From Halosegnis marinus (lineage in GTDB: Archaea > Halobacteriota > Halobacteria > Halobacteriales > Haloarculaceae): a stretch of DNA of 64,000 nucleotides. A program made the translations under genes and the position numbers. The notes below the pieces were generated by a model. That model was not told the origin of the DNA, searched no databases, and was given only the letters and a program-made list of their open reading frames with translations. Shown one piece after another: positions 34,476 to 38,115 of the stretch; positions within the stretch are counted from its first letter, which is position 1, and the number at the start of each line of letters is the position of its first letter. The DNA lies in NCBI RefSeq assembly GCF_029338355.1, contig NZ_CP119802.1, positions 1,488,001-1,552,000 on the forward strand, in the 5' to 3' direction.

Positions 34476-34979
34476 CTAAACGGTGTCGTCGAGCGACCGT
34501 TCGAGCACGTCCTCCGGGTGGCTCTCGCCGCCGACCTCGGTCGTCACGGTCTCGACGCGCTCGAAGCCGTGGCCCTCGAAGAAAGCGCGCCCGACCGCGT
34601 TGCCCGCGAGCACGCCCGCTCGAAGGCGCTCGGCGTCGGCCGCGCGCGCGGACTCCTCGACGGCGCCGAGCAGTTCGGTGCCGATACCGTCGCGCTGGCG
34701 GTCGGGCGCGACGAACAGGGTGAACAGCTCCACCTCGTCGGCGAACGTCTGGCGGGCGGAGACGAAGCCGACGACCTCGCCGTCGCGTTCCGCGACGAGG
34801 AAGAGCAGGTCGTCGCGGTCGTCGAGCACCTCGCGCAGGAACTCGGGGTCGTACAGCGTCTCCAGTCCCGCGCGTATCCGGTCGGTGTCGAGCACGCCGG
34901 GGTAGGTGTCCCACCACGCGTCGTCGGCCACCTCGCGTATCGCCGGCACGTCCTCGGGCGTCGCGGGTCTGACGGTCAT
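34476..34979 (-). CDS. GNAT family N-acetyltransferase
   Basis: The 167-residue protein MTVRPATPEDVPAIREVADD has the complete GNAT fold with the acetyl-CoA motif VAPDRQRDGIGTELL (about 89-103) and the C-terminal AVGRAFFEGHGFE. It resembles acetyltransferases of general RimI/PhnO type. Substrate unknown. It lies downstream of the MFS gene on the same strand, 21 bases away, so may belong to the same transcript. Confidence 0.88.
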   Translation of the reverse strand: MTVRPATPEDVPAIREVADDAWWDTYPGVLDTDRIRAGLETLYDPEFLREVLDDRDDLLFLVAERDGEVVGFVSARQTFADEVELFTLFVAPDRQRDGIGTELLGAVEESARAADAERLRAGVLAGNAVGRAFFEGHGFERVETVTTEVGGESHPEDVLERSLDDTV

Positions 34980-35000: not shown

Positions 35001-36272
35001 CTAATCAGCGTTGGTAGCCGCGGCCGGCGCGGGCCCCGTGCCGGGGTCGTCGGCGGGCGCGTCCGGGGCCTCCACCGCCGTCGCGGCCGGCATCCGCCGG
35101 AGCGCCGGCACCGCGAGGACGTACCCGACGATCCAGAGGAAGCCGACGCCGCCCGCGTACATCACGGCGACGGGGCCGAACGCCTCGCCCGCGACGCCGC
35201 CGACGAACGCGCCGAGGGGCATCGCCGCCGTCGTCCCGCTCCCGAGGACGGCCAGCACGCGCCCGAGCATCGCCTCGGGCACCAGCCGCTGGACGAGCGT
35301 CATCGACACGACGTTCGTGACGCCGACGGGGACGAACGCGAGCGCGAACAGCGCCACCGTCGCCGCCGTGCCGGGGACGAGGAGCGCGGCCAGCCACGCG
35401 ACGCCCGACAGCCCGAACCCGATGACGCTCAGGCGGCCGAAGGGGACGTCCCGGAAGCGCGTCGCGAGCAGCGACCCGACGAGCGTCCCGCCGGCGAGCC
35501 CCGACAGCAGGAGACCGTACAGCGTCGCGTCGCCGCGCTCGGCCGCGAACGCCGGGAGGACGGGCCACGCAGCCCCGAGCAGGCCGTTCGCCACGACCGC
35601 GGCGCCGAGCACCCAGACGACGGGCGACCCACGCAGGAAGCGCGCCCCGGCAACCAGTTCGGCGAGGTAGCCCGCCTCGTCGCCGGCCTCCCGCTCCGCC
35701 GGCGGCACCCGGATGCCGGCGAACAGCACGACGGCCGCGGCGAAGGTCACCGAGTCCACGAGGAACAGCGCCGTCGCGCCGACGAGCGCGACGAGCACGC
35801 CGGCCGCGGCGTTGAAGACGAGTTCCGCGCCCTGATACGTCATCGCGAACAGCGAGTTCGCGCCCGTGAGGTCCTCCGGGTCCGCGACGATGCGGGGCAG
35901 CGCCGCCGAACTCGCCGGGTAGGTGAACTGATTGAGCAGGCTCACGAGCGGCATCACGGTCAGGACGACCCACACCGACAGCACGCCGAGGTGGTCAGCG
36001 AGCGGGATCGCGAGCACGAGCACGCCCTGTGCGGCCTGGGTCGCCACGAGCGTGCGCCGCAGGGGCCACCGGTCCACGAGGGGGCCGACGAACGCCTGCA
36101 ACAGCTGCATCCCGAGCGTCAGCATGCCCGCCAGCCCCGTGTAGAACGTCGAGCCCGTGAGCGAGAAGACGAGCCACATCGCCGCCACGCCGTATATGGA
36201 GTCGCCGGCGTTCGTCACCAGCCGCCCGGCGAACAGCCGGGTGAAGTCGCCGTTCGCGAAGAGTCGTCGCAT
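35001..36272 (-). CDS. MFS transporter (EntS/MFS_3-like exporter)
   Basis: The 423-residue protein has 12 predicted membrane helices. The N-terminal MRRLFANGDFTRLFAGRLVTNAGDSIY pattern (spans helix 1) and DRWPLRRTLV after helix 2 are typical of the MFS_3 group, which exports siderophores, macrolides and other small molecules. The start at 36272 is chosen over 36278 because it gives a leaderless transcript from the TATT element at about 36296-36303. A set of ACAGAA-type half-sites lies just upstream. The next gene upstream encodes a regulator. Confidence 0.88.
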   Translation of the reverse strand: MRRLFANGDFTRLFAGRLVTNAGDSIYGVAAMWLVFSLTGSTFYTGLAGMLTLGMQLLQAFVGPLVDRWPLRRTLVATQAAQGVLVLAIPLADHLGVLSVWVVLTVMPLVSLLNQFTYPASSAALPRIVADPEDLTGANSLFAMTYQGAELVFNAAAGVLVALVGATALFLVDSVTFAAAVVLFAGIRVPPAEREAGDEAGYLAELVAGARFLRGSPVVWVLGAAVVANGLLGAAWPVLPAFAAERGDATLYGLLLSGLAGGTLVGSLLATRFRDVPFGRLSVIGFGLSGVAWLAALLVPGTAATVALFALAFVPVGVTNVVSMTLVQRLVPEAMLGRVLAVLGSGTTAAMPLGAFVGGVAGEAFGPVAVMYAGGVGFLWIVGYVLAVPALRRMPAATAVEAPDAPADDPGTGPAPAAATNAD

Positions 36273-36295: not shown

Positions 36296-36355
36296 AATAA
36301 ATGAACGCAGAATTACAGTTCTGTCCTCCCCCGGACAGAAGCCGAGTTCTGTCAG
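36296..36355 (-). promoter_or_regulatory. MFS gene promoter and candidate operator array
   Basis: On the minus strand a TATA-like CATTTATTCC (about 36295-36304) lies about 27 bases from the MFS start. Upstream are four alternating half-sites: CAGAA (36308-36312), TTCTGTCC (36319-36326), GGACAGAA (36333-36340), TTCTGTCA (36348-36355). The middle pair is a perfect 8-base inverted repeat with a 6-base spacer. The last half-site overlaps the stop codon of the regulator gene. Confidence 0.6.
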
Positions 36356-37224
36356 CGGTCGGACCGCTCGACGGAGACCACCTTCCCCGTCGCGTCCACG
36401 CGCCCGCGGAGCTCCTCGCCGTCCAGCCGGAGCGTCACGTCCGCGCCCGTCCCGTCGGCGTCCTGGTCGAGGTTGTCCATCGTAAGCAGCCGCCACGACG
36501 GGGTGGTGTTCGGGTCGACGCCGTGGTCGTAGAGGAAGCCCTGTCCCGCCGGGTGGAAGAGCAGCGGCGTCGCCGCCGACGAGCGGGCCACCGACCCGCA
36601 GCGGTCACAGGACCACGCGAGCGTCGGGTGGTCCCCCTCGGGCTTCAGTTCGCCCGTCAGCCGGCCGGCACAGGTCCAACAGAAGCCCGCGGTGATGCGC
36701 TGGAACAGCGCGTACATCCACCGGTCGAACGCGGCGGGCAACTCCTCGGGCTCGTACTGGTCGAGCGTCCCCGGCGGGAAGCCGAAGGAGTTGTACCACT
36801 CGTCGCACTCGTGACACGACAGCGTCGCCACGTCGTCGTCGAACGCGGCGTGGATGGCCCTCGCGCCGCAGGCGGGACACGGGTCGTCGACGGCCACGGC
36901 GTCGAGGTGTCCGTCCGCGGTGTAGGTGCCGGCGACCAGCGCCCCGACGACCTGCTGGCCGGCGAGCGTGAGTTCGTACCCCTCCGTGTCCCCGTCGTCC
37001 TCGTCGTCCGCCTCGACGTGCCGGACGAACGTGCCGACGAGCTTCCCGAGGTGGTAGTTGAACTTCCCGGAGTCGCGCTCGCCGACGGCGGCCCGCAGCG
37101 CCGAGAAGGAGAGCGGCTCCTCGCCAGCGTCCGCGAGCGCCCGGAGGACCTCCACCCGGAGTTCGTTGCCGAGCAGCGCGAACACCTCCTCCGGGGGACG
37201 CCGCTCGACCGATATCGTGCTCAT
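36352..37224 (-). CDS. Winged-helix regulator with zinc-ribbon domain
   Basis: The 290-residue protein has an ArsR-like winged helix at about 10-90 (PPEEVFALLGNELRVEVLRAL, KFNYHLGKLV). A second domain has three CxxC/CxxxC pairs (CPACGARAI, CHECDEWY, CWTCAGRL, CDRCG) that should bind zinc, and a C-terminal beta-rich part. This pairing is common in haloarchaea (DUF7351-like). It lies 79 bases upstream of the MFS gene and is a natural candidate to bind the half-sites there. The ligand is unknown. Confidence 0.85.
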   Translation of the reverse strand: MSTISVERRPPEEVFALLGNELRVEVLRALADAGEEPLSFSALRAAVGERDSGKFNYHLGKLVGTFVRHVEADDEDDGDTEGYELTLAGQQVVGALVAGTYTADGHLDAVAVDDPCPACGARAIHAAFDDDVATLSCHECDEWYNSFGFPPGTLDQYEPEELPAAFDRWMYALFQRITAGFCWTCAGRLTGELKPEGDHPTLAWSCDRCGSVARSSAATPLLFHPAGQGFLYDHGVDPNTTPSWRLLTMDNLDQDADGTGADVTLRLDGEELRGRVDATGKVVSVERSDR

Positions 37225-37263: not shown

Positions 37264-38115
37264 CTACGGCTCTGGCTCCGGCTCGGTGACGTACTCGAAC
37301 ATCGCTTCGCCGGTCACCTCGTACCCCTGCCGGGAGAAGAACGCGGCGACGTTCCGGCAGTCGCGTTCGAGGAAGTCCCGGCTGTTCGGGTGATGGACGG
37401 TGACGGCCTGCCCGAGGTCGAGGACGTACAGCTCCCCGTCGTGGACGACGACGTTGTACTCCGAGAGGTCGCCGTGGACGAGGCCCGCACGGTACAGCCG
37501 CCGCGTGTACTCGCGGACGACCTCGTAGGCCGTCTCGGGGTTCTCCACCGCCACCTCAGAGAGGCGCTTCGCGCGCTCGCCGTCGCGTCCGAGGAACTCC
37601 ATCACGAGGACGTTCCGCTGGACGGCGATGGGCTCGGGAACGCGCACGCCGGCGTCGCGGGCGCGCATGAGGTTCGCGAACTCCTTTTTCGTCCACGCGA
37701 CGACGACCTTCCGCTTGTCAGAGCCGATGCCCTCGAAGCGCGGGTCGCCGTCGAGGTAGTCGCGCATCGCCCGGAAGTCGGAGGCGTTGATGCGGTATAT
37801 CTTCACCGCGACGTCGCGGTCGTCGCCGGCCGCGAGATAGACGTTCGCCTCCTTCCCCGTCGAGAGCGGGCCGCCGAACGCCGCGACGTGGCCGTCCTGC
37901 ACGAGCTTGTACAGCGCGGCGAGCGTCGCGTCGTCGAACACCGAGTCGGTGACCTTGAACTGGTCGGCGTCCTTGATGCGCTTGCGGAACTCCAGGAACT
38001 CGCGGTCCTGTTTGCGGCCGACCGCGTCCGCCTCGCTCTCCGAGACGTCTATCTCGTCCCACTCGTCGCCCGGTATCTCCGCCCCGTCGGTGTCGACGAG
38101 GTCGAACTCGGTCAT
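37264..38115 (-). CDS. rio1: RIO1-type serine protein kinase
   Basis: The 283-residue protein has the RIO P-loop STGKEANVY (85-93), lysine K105 in VAVKIY, the catalytic HGDLSEYN (214-221) and metal-binding LDLGQ (232-236). RIO1 acts in late 40S/30S maturation. It ends with an acidic PEPEP tail. It lies seven bases after the aIF1A gene on the same strand, so both are co-transcribed. Confidence 0.94.
   Translation of the reverse strand: MTEFDLVDTDGAEIPGDEWDEIDVSESEADAVGRKQDREFLEFRKRIKDADQFKVTDSVFDDATLAALYKLVQDGHVAAFGGPLSTGKEANVYLAAGDDRDVAVKIYRINASDFRAMRDYLDGDPRFEGIGSDKRKVVVAWTKKEFANLMRARDAGVRVPEPIAVQRNVLVMEFLGRDGERAKRLSEVAVENPETAYEVVREYTRRLYRAGLVHGDLSEYNVVVHDGELYVLDLGQAVTVHHPNSRDFLERDCRNVAAFFSRQGYEVTGEAMFEYVTEPEPEP

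Follow-up and report, generated by a model that had tools for sequence, protein, structure and literature searches.

One-component regulators of exporters are well known, and many proteins of the MarR/MepR and ArsR types repress efflux genes. To our knowledge, operators resolved to the single base are rare among archaeal one-component regulators. The system described here, in which the gene of a putative regulator (hereafter REG) adjoins that of an MFS exporter, resembles the MarR/MepR and ArsR/SmtB efflux regulators in its winged-helix (wHTH) fold and in the placement of the regulator gene beside the exporter, but differs from them in that REG carries a 180-residue double-ribbon domain and that its putative operator consists of a twin dyad of fixed geometry beside an archaeal BRE. 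CopR of Pyrococcus furiosus is an octameric copper regulator of the Lrp type with the semi-palindromic motif TTNNCAWWWTGNNAA; the predicted system would share with it a semi-palindromic motif that immediately precedes the BRE of activated promoters, the control of an exporter and oligomeric binding over several sites (PMC7830388). Unlike CopR, with its Lrp-family protein, TTNNCAWWWTGNNAA motif and octamer, the present locus combines twin dyads 28 bp apart with a DUF7351 C-terminus, a comparison made at the level of architecture. The TrmB family, including Halobacterium VNG1451C, likewise comprises archaeal wHTH dimers that bind inverted repeats and for which site position relative to the BRE and TATA box goes with the sign of regulation; its H. 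salinarum motif (TACT-N7-8-GAGTA) and sugar-responsive effector C-terminus differ from the CAGAA-N6-TTCTG dyads and double Cys ribbons found here (PMC4158304). Finally, the bacterial GntR-type tetramer BusR offers a parallel for two sites at one fixed distance being read in ruler-like fashion by an oligomer, although it belongs to a different family, represses in response to c-di-AMP from a motif separated by 22 bp, and has a coiled-coil ruler of which the present comparison shows no sign (PMC8517857).

The window, a stretch of 64,000 nucleotides from Halosegnis marinus, contains at positions 36308-36351 a 44-bp array composed of two CAGAA-N6-TTCTG dyads with centers 28 bp apart. On the plus strand, the half-sites read CAGAA (36308-36312), TTCTGTCC (36319-36326), GGACAGAA (36333-36340) and TTCTGTCA (36347-36354); they alternate with a strict 14-bp period, yielding dyad centers at 36315.5, 36329.5 and 36343.5, and every spacer measures 6 bases. 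The original prediction had described four alternating half-sites, and their presence and place are borne out, but the last spacer, given there as N7, is 6 bases long (36341-36346). The overlapping 8-bp middle dyad that it had also proposed does not hold up, since its TCC/GGA extension is poorly conserved among 31 aligned arrays: with the exception of the base adjoining each half-site, these positions carry 0.1-0.3 bits, and TTCTGTCC-N6-GGACAGAA was rejected as an independent conserved dyad. Judged by conservation, the predicted functional unit is (A)CAGAA-N6-TTCTG occurring twice, with centers 28 bp apart.

All elements of the predicted promoter read on the minus strand. In the direction of the MFS gene, the putative distal operator dyad, defined by sequence and alignment, comprises half-sites 1 and 2 (36336..36351) and is adjoined by the REG stop codon (36352-36354), which falls inside TTCTGTCA as originally drawn. 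The putative proximal dyad, CAGAA-CTGTAA-TTCTG (half-sites 3 and 4; 36308..36323), defined on the 31 unique arrays, adjoins the candidate BRE, assigned by position only to the 6 nt (CGTTCA, 36302..36307) that separate array and TATA box, an interval fixed in all 31 arrays. The TATA box itself (TTTATT, 36296..36301; aligned columns T-A-T in 27-30 of 31) lies about 26 bp before the MFS start codon (ATG 36272), in agreement with the earlier proposal of a TATA box set for a leaderless transcript, and the MFS transcript is probably leaderless. The exporter gene (35001..36272) encodes a protein that satisfies the general models PF07690 and PF05977 and scores 164.7 bits against NCBIfam TIGR00900 (H+ antiporter), below the cut-off of 319.6. 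The surrounding genes, all on the minus strand, encode a GNAT acetyltransferase (34476..34979), a downstream neighbor kept in some loci, and a RIO1-type kinase (37264..38115), the upstream neighbor of REG in several families.

The original prediction had named absence of the repeats from the promoters of orthologous exporters as a finding that would refute it, and this check did not do so. MFS relatives fetched by protein similarity alone from 146 genomes of the family (36 with a match) provided 29 non-self loci for inspection, 10 of which carry the array with 0-2 mismatches. The 19 loci with none, at which at least 9 of 20 positions are wrong, all correspond to a subfamily 38-45% identical in script alignments, and the array is kept beyond the genus and the family wherever the MFS relative is a close one. 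In a set of 31 unique MFS arrays, there is no change in the half-sites, in the gap of 12 bp or in the 6 nt to the TATA box, although part of this set was fetched by pattern and its half-site conservation is to that extent by construction; this selection bias is absent only from the protein-fetched MFS set and from the tests of linkage, gap and helix. The distance from array to start codon is 33-37 bp in 30 of the 31 arrays and 53 bp in the other, where the start is probably misplaced. The spacer of the proximal dyad is conserved (M-TGT-M-N, with TGT in 27-29 of 31 per column), and that of the distal dyad is variable. Exact duplicates were removed from this set and from a broader set of 68 arrays.

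At the level of the order, 158 of 392 genomes match the pattern at three mismatches or fewer, compared to two for the reversed control. When the gap was left free between 0 and 30 bp, 23 exact twin dyads were recovered in 22 of the 392 genomes, all 23 with a gap of 12, and the reversed control returned none. Among 84,980 prokaryote genomes, the exact pattern occurs in 15 stretches. Ten of these are haloarchaeal, from Halobacterium salinarum, Natrialba asiatica and Halogranum rubrum among others; the five bacterial matches (L104, L105, L106, L113 and L116) were set aside, by inspection, as chance or other repeats. No exact match was found among viral contigs, and a plasmid search yielded nothing beyond partial matches to REG or MFS homologs.

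The array is not a chance occurrence: at three mismatches or fewer the 44-bp pattern is found once in the window and in none of 100 dinucleotide shuffles. Over the whole 2.81-Mb genome, which is haloarchaeal in gene content and in its relatives, the same threshold returns a single other, self-overlapping site, and the reversed control none. This second array (G000:C1:586784-586855; L019:5785-5856) precedes the gene of a 96-aa membrane protein and contains three dyads, that is, six half-sites with a 14-bp period; the dyads follow a 28-bp period with a degraded middle member, so that the outer ones are 56 bp apart. It carries the same promoter block as the MFS array, GGACAGAACTGTA(A/G)TTCTGCGTTCA. 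By reading only, the gene next to that of the 96-aa protein resembles a polyphosphate kinase. Isolated single dyads at C1:921112, 1706501 and 2395487 have no partner dyad and were discarded as operators. The first of these, CAGAAGGGCCCTTCTG (G000:C1:921112-921127; L025:1501-1516), lies directly downstream of a DUF7351 paralog and is a perfect palindrome more akin to a terminator hairpin than to an operator.

The predicted regulator, REG (36352..37224, minus strand), is composed of an N-terminal wHTH domain (PF24038, DUF7347) and a C-terminal domain with two Cys ribbons (PF24042, DUF7351), and it exceeds both curated cut-offs (98.8 bits against 27.6 for PF24038 and 138.1 against 31.2 for PF24042). 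In the AlphaFold model (pLDDT 81, pTM 0.57), helices span residues 40-47 and 52-62, the latter being taken as the recognition helix; the corresponding region, D51-S-G-K-F-N-Y-H-L-G-K-L62, maps to 37039..37074, and S52 is replaced by P in DPG-type relatives. Structure comparison indicates that residues ~8-104 resemble MarR/ArsR-type wHTH domains (Z ~10-12), with ArsR, CzrA, CadC and MarR-type domains matching at similar scores; the absence of a family from the VIA structure list was not counted as evidence. The resemblance to MarR lies in the wHTH core, with no whole-protein match and no match to a MarR Pfam model, and Foldseek searches with the REG model found no PDB match at E ≤0.001. In sequence, REG matches solved ArsR proteins weakly (best E 0.013), and the ArsR family cut-offs are not reached by either NF033788 (12.5 bits against 55) or HTH_20 (26.0 against 27).

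In the C-terminal domain, the first Cys ribbon (C116, C119, C137 and C140; 36805..36879) has its first three cysteines invariant in 8 of 8 proteins, with C140 missing from L109, and profile positions 105-137 weakly match the TFIIB ribbon (E 0.037). The second ribbon (C182, C185, C206 and C209; 36598..36681) is invariant in 8 of 8. We infer that this double-ribbon domain senses a signal or mediates contacts, and the ribbons themselves could be structural or sensory. DUF7351 paralogs are present in several copies per genome, up to 12 in one of 20 genomes, and several of them share the FNYHL helix.

The relationship between REG and the array is revealed by their covariation. The initial observation was of TAGAA half-sites beside three REGs whose recognition helix opens with DPG rather than DSG, and beside one broken REG. 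DPG was then predicted in writing from nine further TAGAA arrays before the proteins were read, and all nine neighbors proved to carry it. A linked REG whose helix can be read accompanies 43 of the 68 unique arrays, and the TAGAA-type half-site accompanies 13 of 13 DPG, 0 of 27 DSG and 0 of 3 DSA proteins (Fisher 2.7e-11 for 13/13 against 0/30, ignoring relatedness). CTGAA half-sites accompany all three DSA proteins, none of the 13 DPG proteins and two of the 27 DSG proteins (L039 and L137, at half-site 4), and because of the latter the CTGAA/DSA link appears looser than that between TAGAA and DPG. The array strand was misassigned in L070, L076, L088 and L123, which leaves the presence of TAGAA or CTGAA unaffected. 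In a tree of 42 REGs, built without L090 (whose REG lies in two frames) and L126, well-supported branches force two separate changes for the DPG/TAGAA state, and DSA requires one; helix and operator have thus switched together at least twice.

Of all the evidence for REG as the reader of the array, we regard this covariation as the strongest and, since REG also stays linked to the array, it very probably binds there. The adjacent wHTH/zinc-ribbon protein that had been put forward as the regulator is, on linkage and helix covariation, the best candidate binder, and conservation, linkage and covariation together uphold the overall reading of regulator, operator and exporter. We therefore consider it likely, from these comparative data, that the array serves the MFS promoter as operator and is read by REG (DUF7347+DUF7351) and its close relatives in the form of two dimers set against the BRE and TATA box. 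The predicted regulon in this genome would consist of this MFS gene and the small membrane protein gene at C1:586.8 kb.

In the proposed mechanism, two REG dimers would occupy the two 16-bp CAGAA-N6-TTCTG dyads, with one recognition helix per half-site, right beside the BRE and TATA box that serve the leaderless transcript. Contact between the dimers is probable, given the constant 28-bp distance from dyad to dyad. Cooperativity and the dimer stoichiometry are likewise inferred, the former because the invariant gap suggests that relative placement matters. As 28 bp amounts to ~2.7 helical turns, the two dimers would occupy different faces of the double helix. With regard to the direction of control, activation through recruitment of TBP/TFB is somewhat favored, because the sites precede the BRE and TATA box at a fixed distance, leaving TATA box and start uncovered, and because the activator sites of the TrmB family and CopR are similarly placed.

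A repressor acting at the same operator is a possibility that we consider real, if not the probable one. REG would then deny TFB access to the BRE, and binding of the exported compound to the C-terminal domain would lift the block, as in efflux switches of the MarR/ArsR type. The closest folds of its DNA-binding domain are indeed of the MarR/MepR and ArsR types, the array abuts the BRE in a manner that makes steric blocking possible, and a fixed TATA distance fits blocking as well as contact. The sites are, however, wholly upstream of TATA box and start, whereas TrmB-family repressor sites fall mostly downstream of the BRE and TATA box and activator sites upstream (PMC4158304), and CopR activates from a motif that immediately precedes the BRE (PMC7830388).

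Gene linkage bears on the identity of the binder. Of 30 array loci sampled across the order, 16 have both REG and MFS, one has REG without MFS (L092, where a small membrane gene is present), one has MFS only and 12 have neither; for the 10 haloarchaeal loci with the exact pattern, the corresponding numbers are seven with both, one with MFS only and two with neither. Several families share the gene order RIO1-REG-array-MFS, partly with eIF1A, GNAT or KH genes alongside; in Halobacterium salinarum (L110) the order is array-MFS-REG. REG-adjacent arrays also precede other targets, namely small membrane proteins (L092, L132, L133 and L137) and a DUF5694 gene (L121 and L126), and arrays without REG in the stretch precede other small membrane proteins, a different MFS (L086) and a beta-propeller protein (L115). 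Array linkage follows REG, not one target gene, and we discarded the notion of the array as a mere bystander of the MFS gene, given that it also precedes small membrane proteins, the DUF5694 gene of L121 and the different MFS of L086.

These same data contain the grounds for a third reading, in which the array is bound mainly by an unlinked DUF7351 paralog or by another regulator family and REG is only a bystander, left there by an earlier arrangement of the genes. The fetched stretch contains no REG for 24 of the 68 unique arrays, genomes G003 and G005 have an array before a small membrane gene and only paralogs of the window's REG, and the FNYHL helix is common to several paralogs. We nonetheless deem this reading improbable: the concerted switch of linked REG helix and operator, twice independently, is not expected of a bystander, and REG linkage survives changes of both gene order and target. 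An explanation of the repeats by chance, or as an element of RNA or of replication, is scarcely credible, for although dyads can in principle fold as hairpins, the fixed position before the TATA box places them outside the leaderless transcript, and strict spacing, helix covariation and the empty shuffles argue against all three.

Against binding by REG, our preferred reading, stands the state of three genomes of the same genus (G001, G002 and G004; L020-L022), which retain at the same locus a REG ortholog 57-59% identical, without the MFS gene and with no array at three mismatches or fewer. The REG tree, drawn here without L090, L108, L112, L013 and L018, places this state as a loss within array-bearing relatives. 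A regulator unrelated to the array, which these genomes taken alone would suggest, was rejected in view of this tree and of the conservation and linkage seen elsewhere. Because REG persists there without MFS and array, it may have another use or be decaying, and these genomes offer a natural test of other roles of REG.

Literature searches for DUF7347, DUF7351, PF24038 and PF24042, mostly confined to papers outside subscription, found no mention of these families, and keyword searches found no paper on this twin-dyad operator; the REG family, the fixed twin-dyad operator and the apparent three-way code were thus not found described. Taken further, and only tentatively, the data would fit a haloarchaea-wide DUF7347/DUF7351 family with a readable code (DSG, DPG and DSA for CAGAA, TAGAA and CTGAA), whose dimer pairs, 28 bp apart against the BRE, recruit TFB and activate exporters together with rapidly evolving small membrane proteins in a single response to membrane or xenobiotic stress. 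If the code is true, paralogs with different letters would allow several circuits to run per cell without cross-talk, and such paralogs permit tests of insulation between circuits. Operator, spacing, regulator and likely specificity residue have here all been obtained from comparison alone, and the covariation amounts to a natural experiment on the joint change of a winged-helix protein and its operator. The system includes the genetically tractable Halobacterium salinarum, making binding, sign and ligand directly testable, and through it two domain families classed as of unknown function would gain a first role.

Several further observations concern the genes and repeats found alongside these arrays. 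In numerous loci (L077-L079, L081-L084, L087, L092-L095, L099, L100 and L130-L137), the array stands before small membrane proteins (~50-110 aa) that are mutually dissimilar, so that the promoter is conserved and the proteins themselves are not. Six of these proteins were searched for Pfam families and none was found (best E-value 0.16 for five of them, plus L137); their transmembrane segments were assigned with a hydropathy script for ten loci and otherwise by eye. At L121 (2131-2982) and L126, a DPG-type REG and array precede a gene for a soluble DUF5694 (TraB-like) protein, not an exporter, identified by Pfam match in L121 and by a similar N-terminus in L126. Lastly, Actinacidiphila rubida (L104:4674-4717) and Streptomyces acidipaludis (L105:2092-2135) carry a near-perfect 44-bp inverted repeat that fits the twin-dyad pattern, followed in L104, after ~0.6 kb, by a distant MFS homolog (27%); this actinobacterial repeat is probably an unrelated operator.
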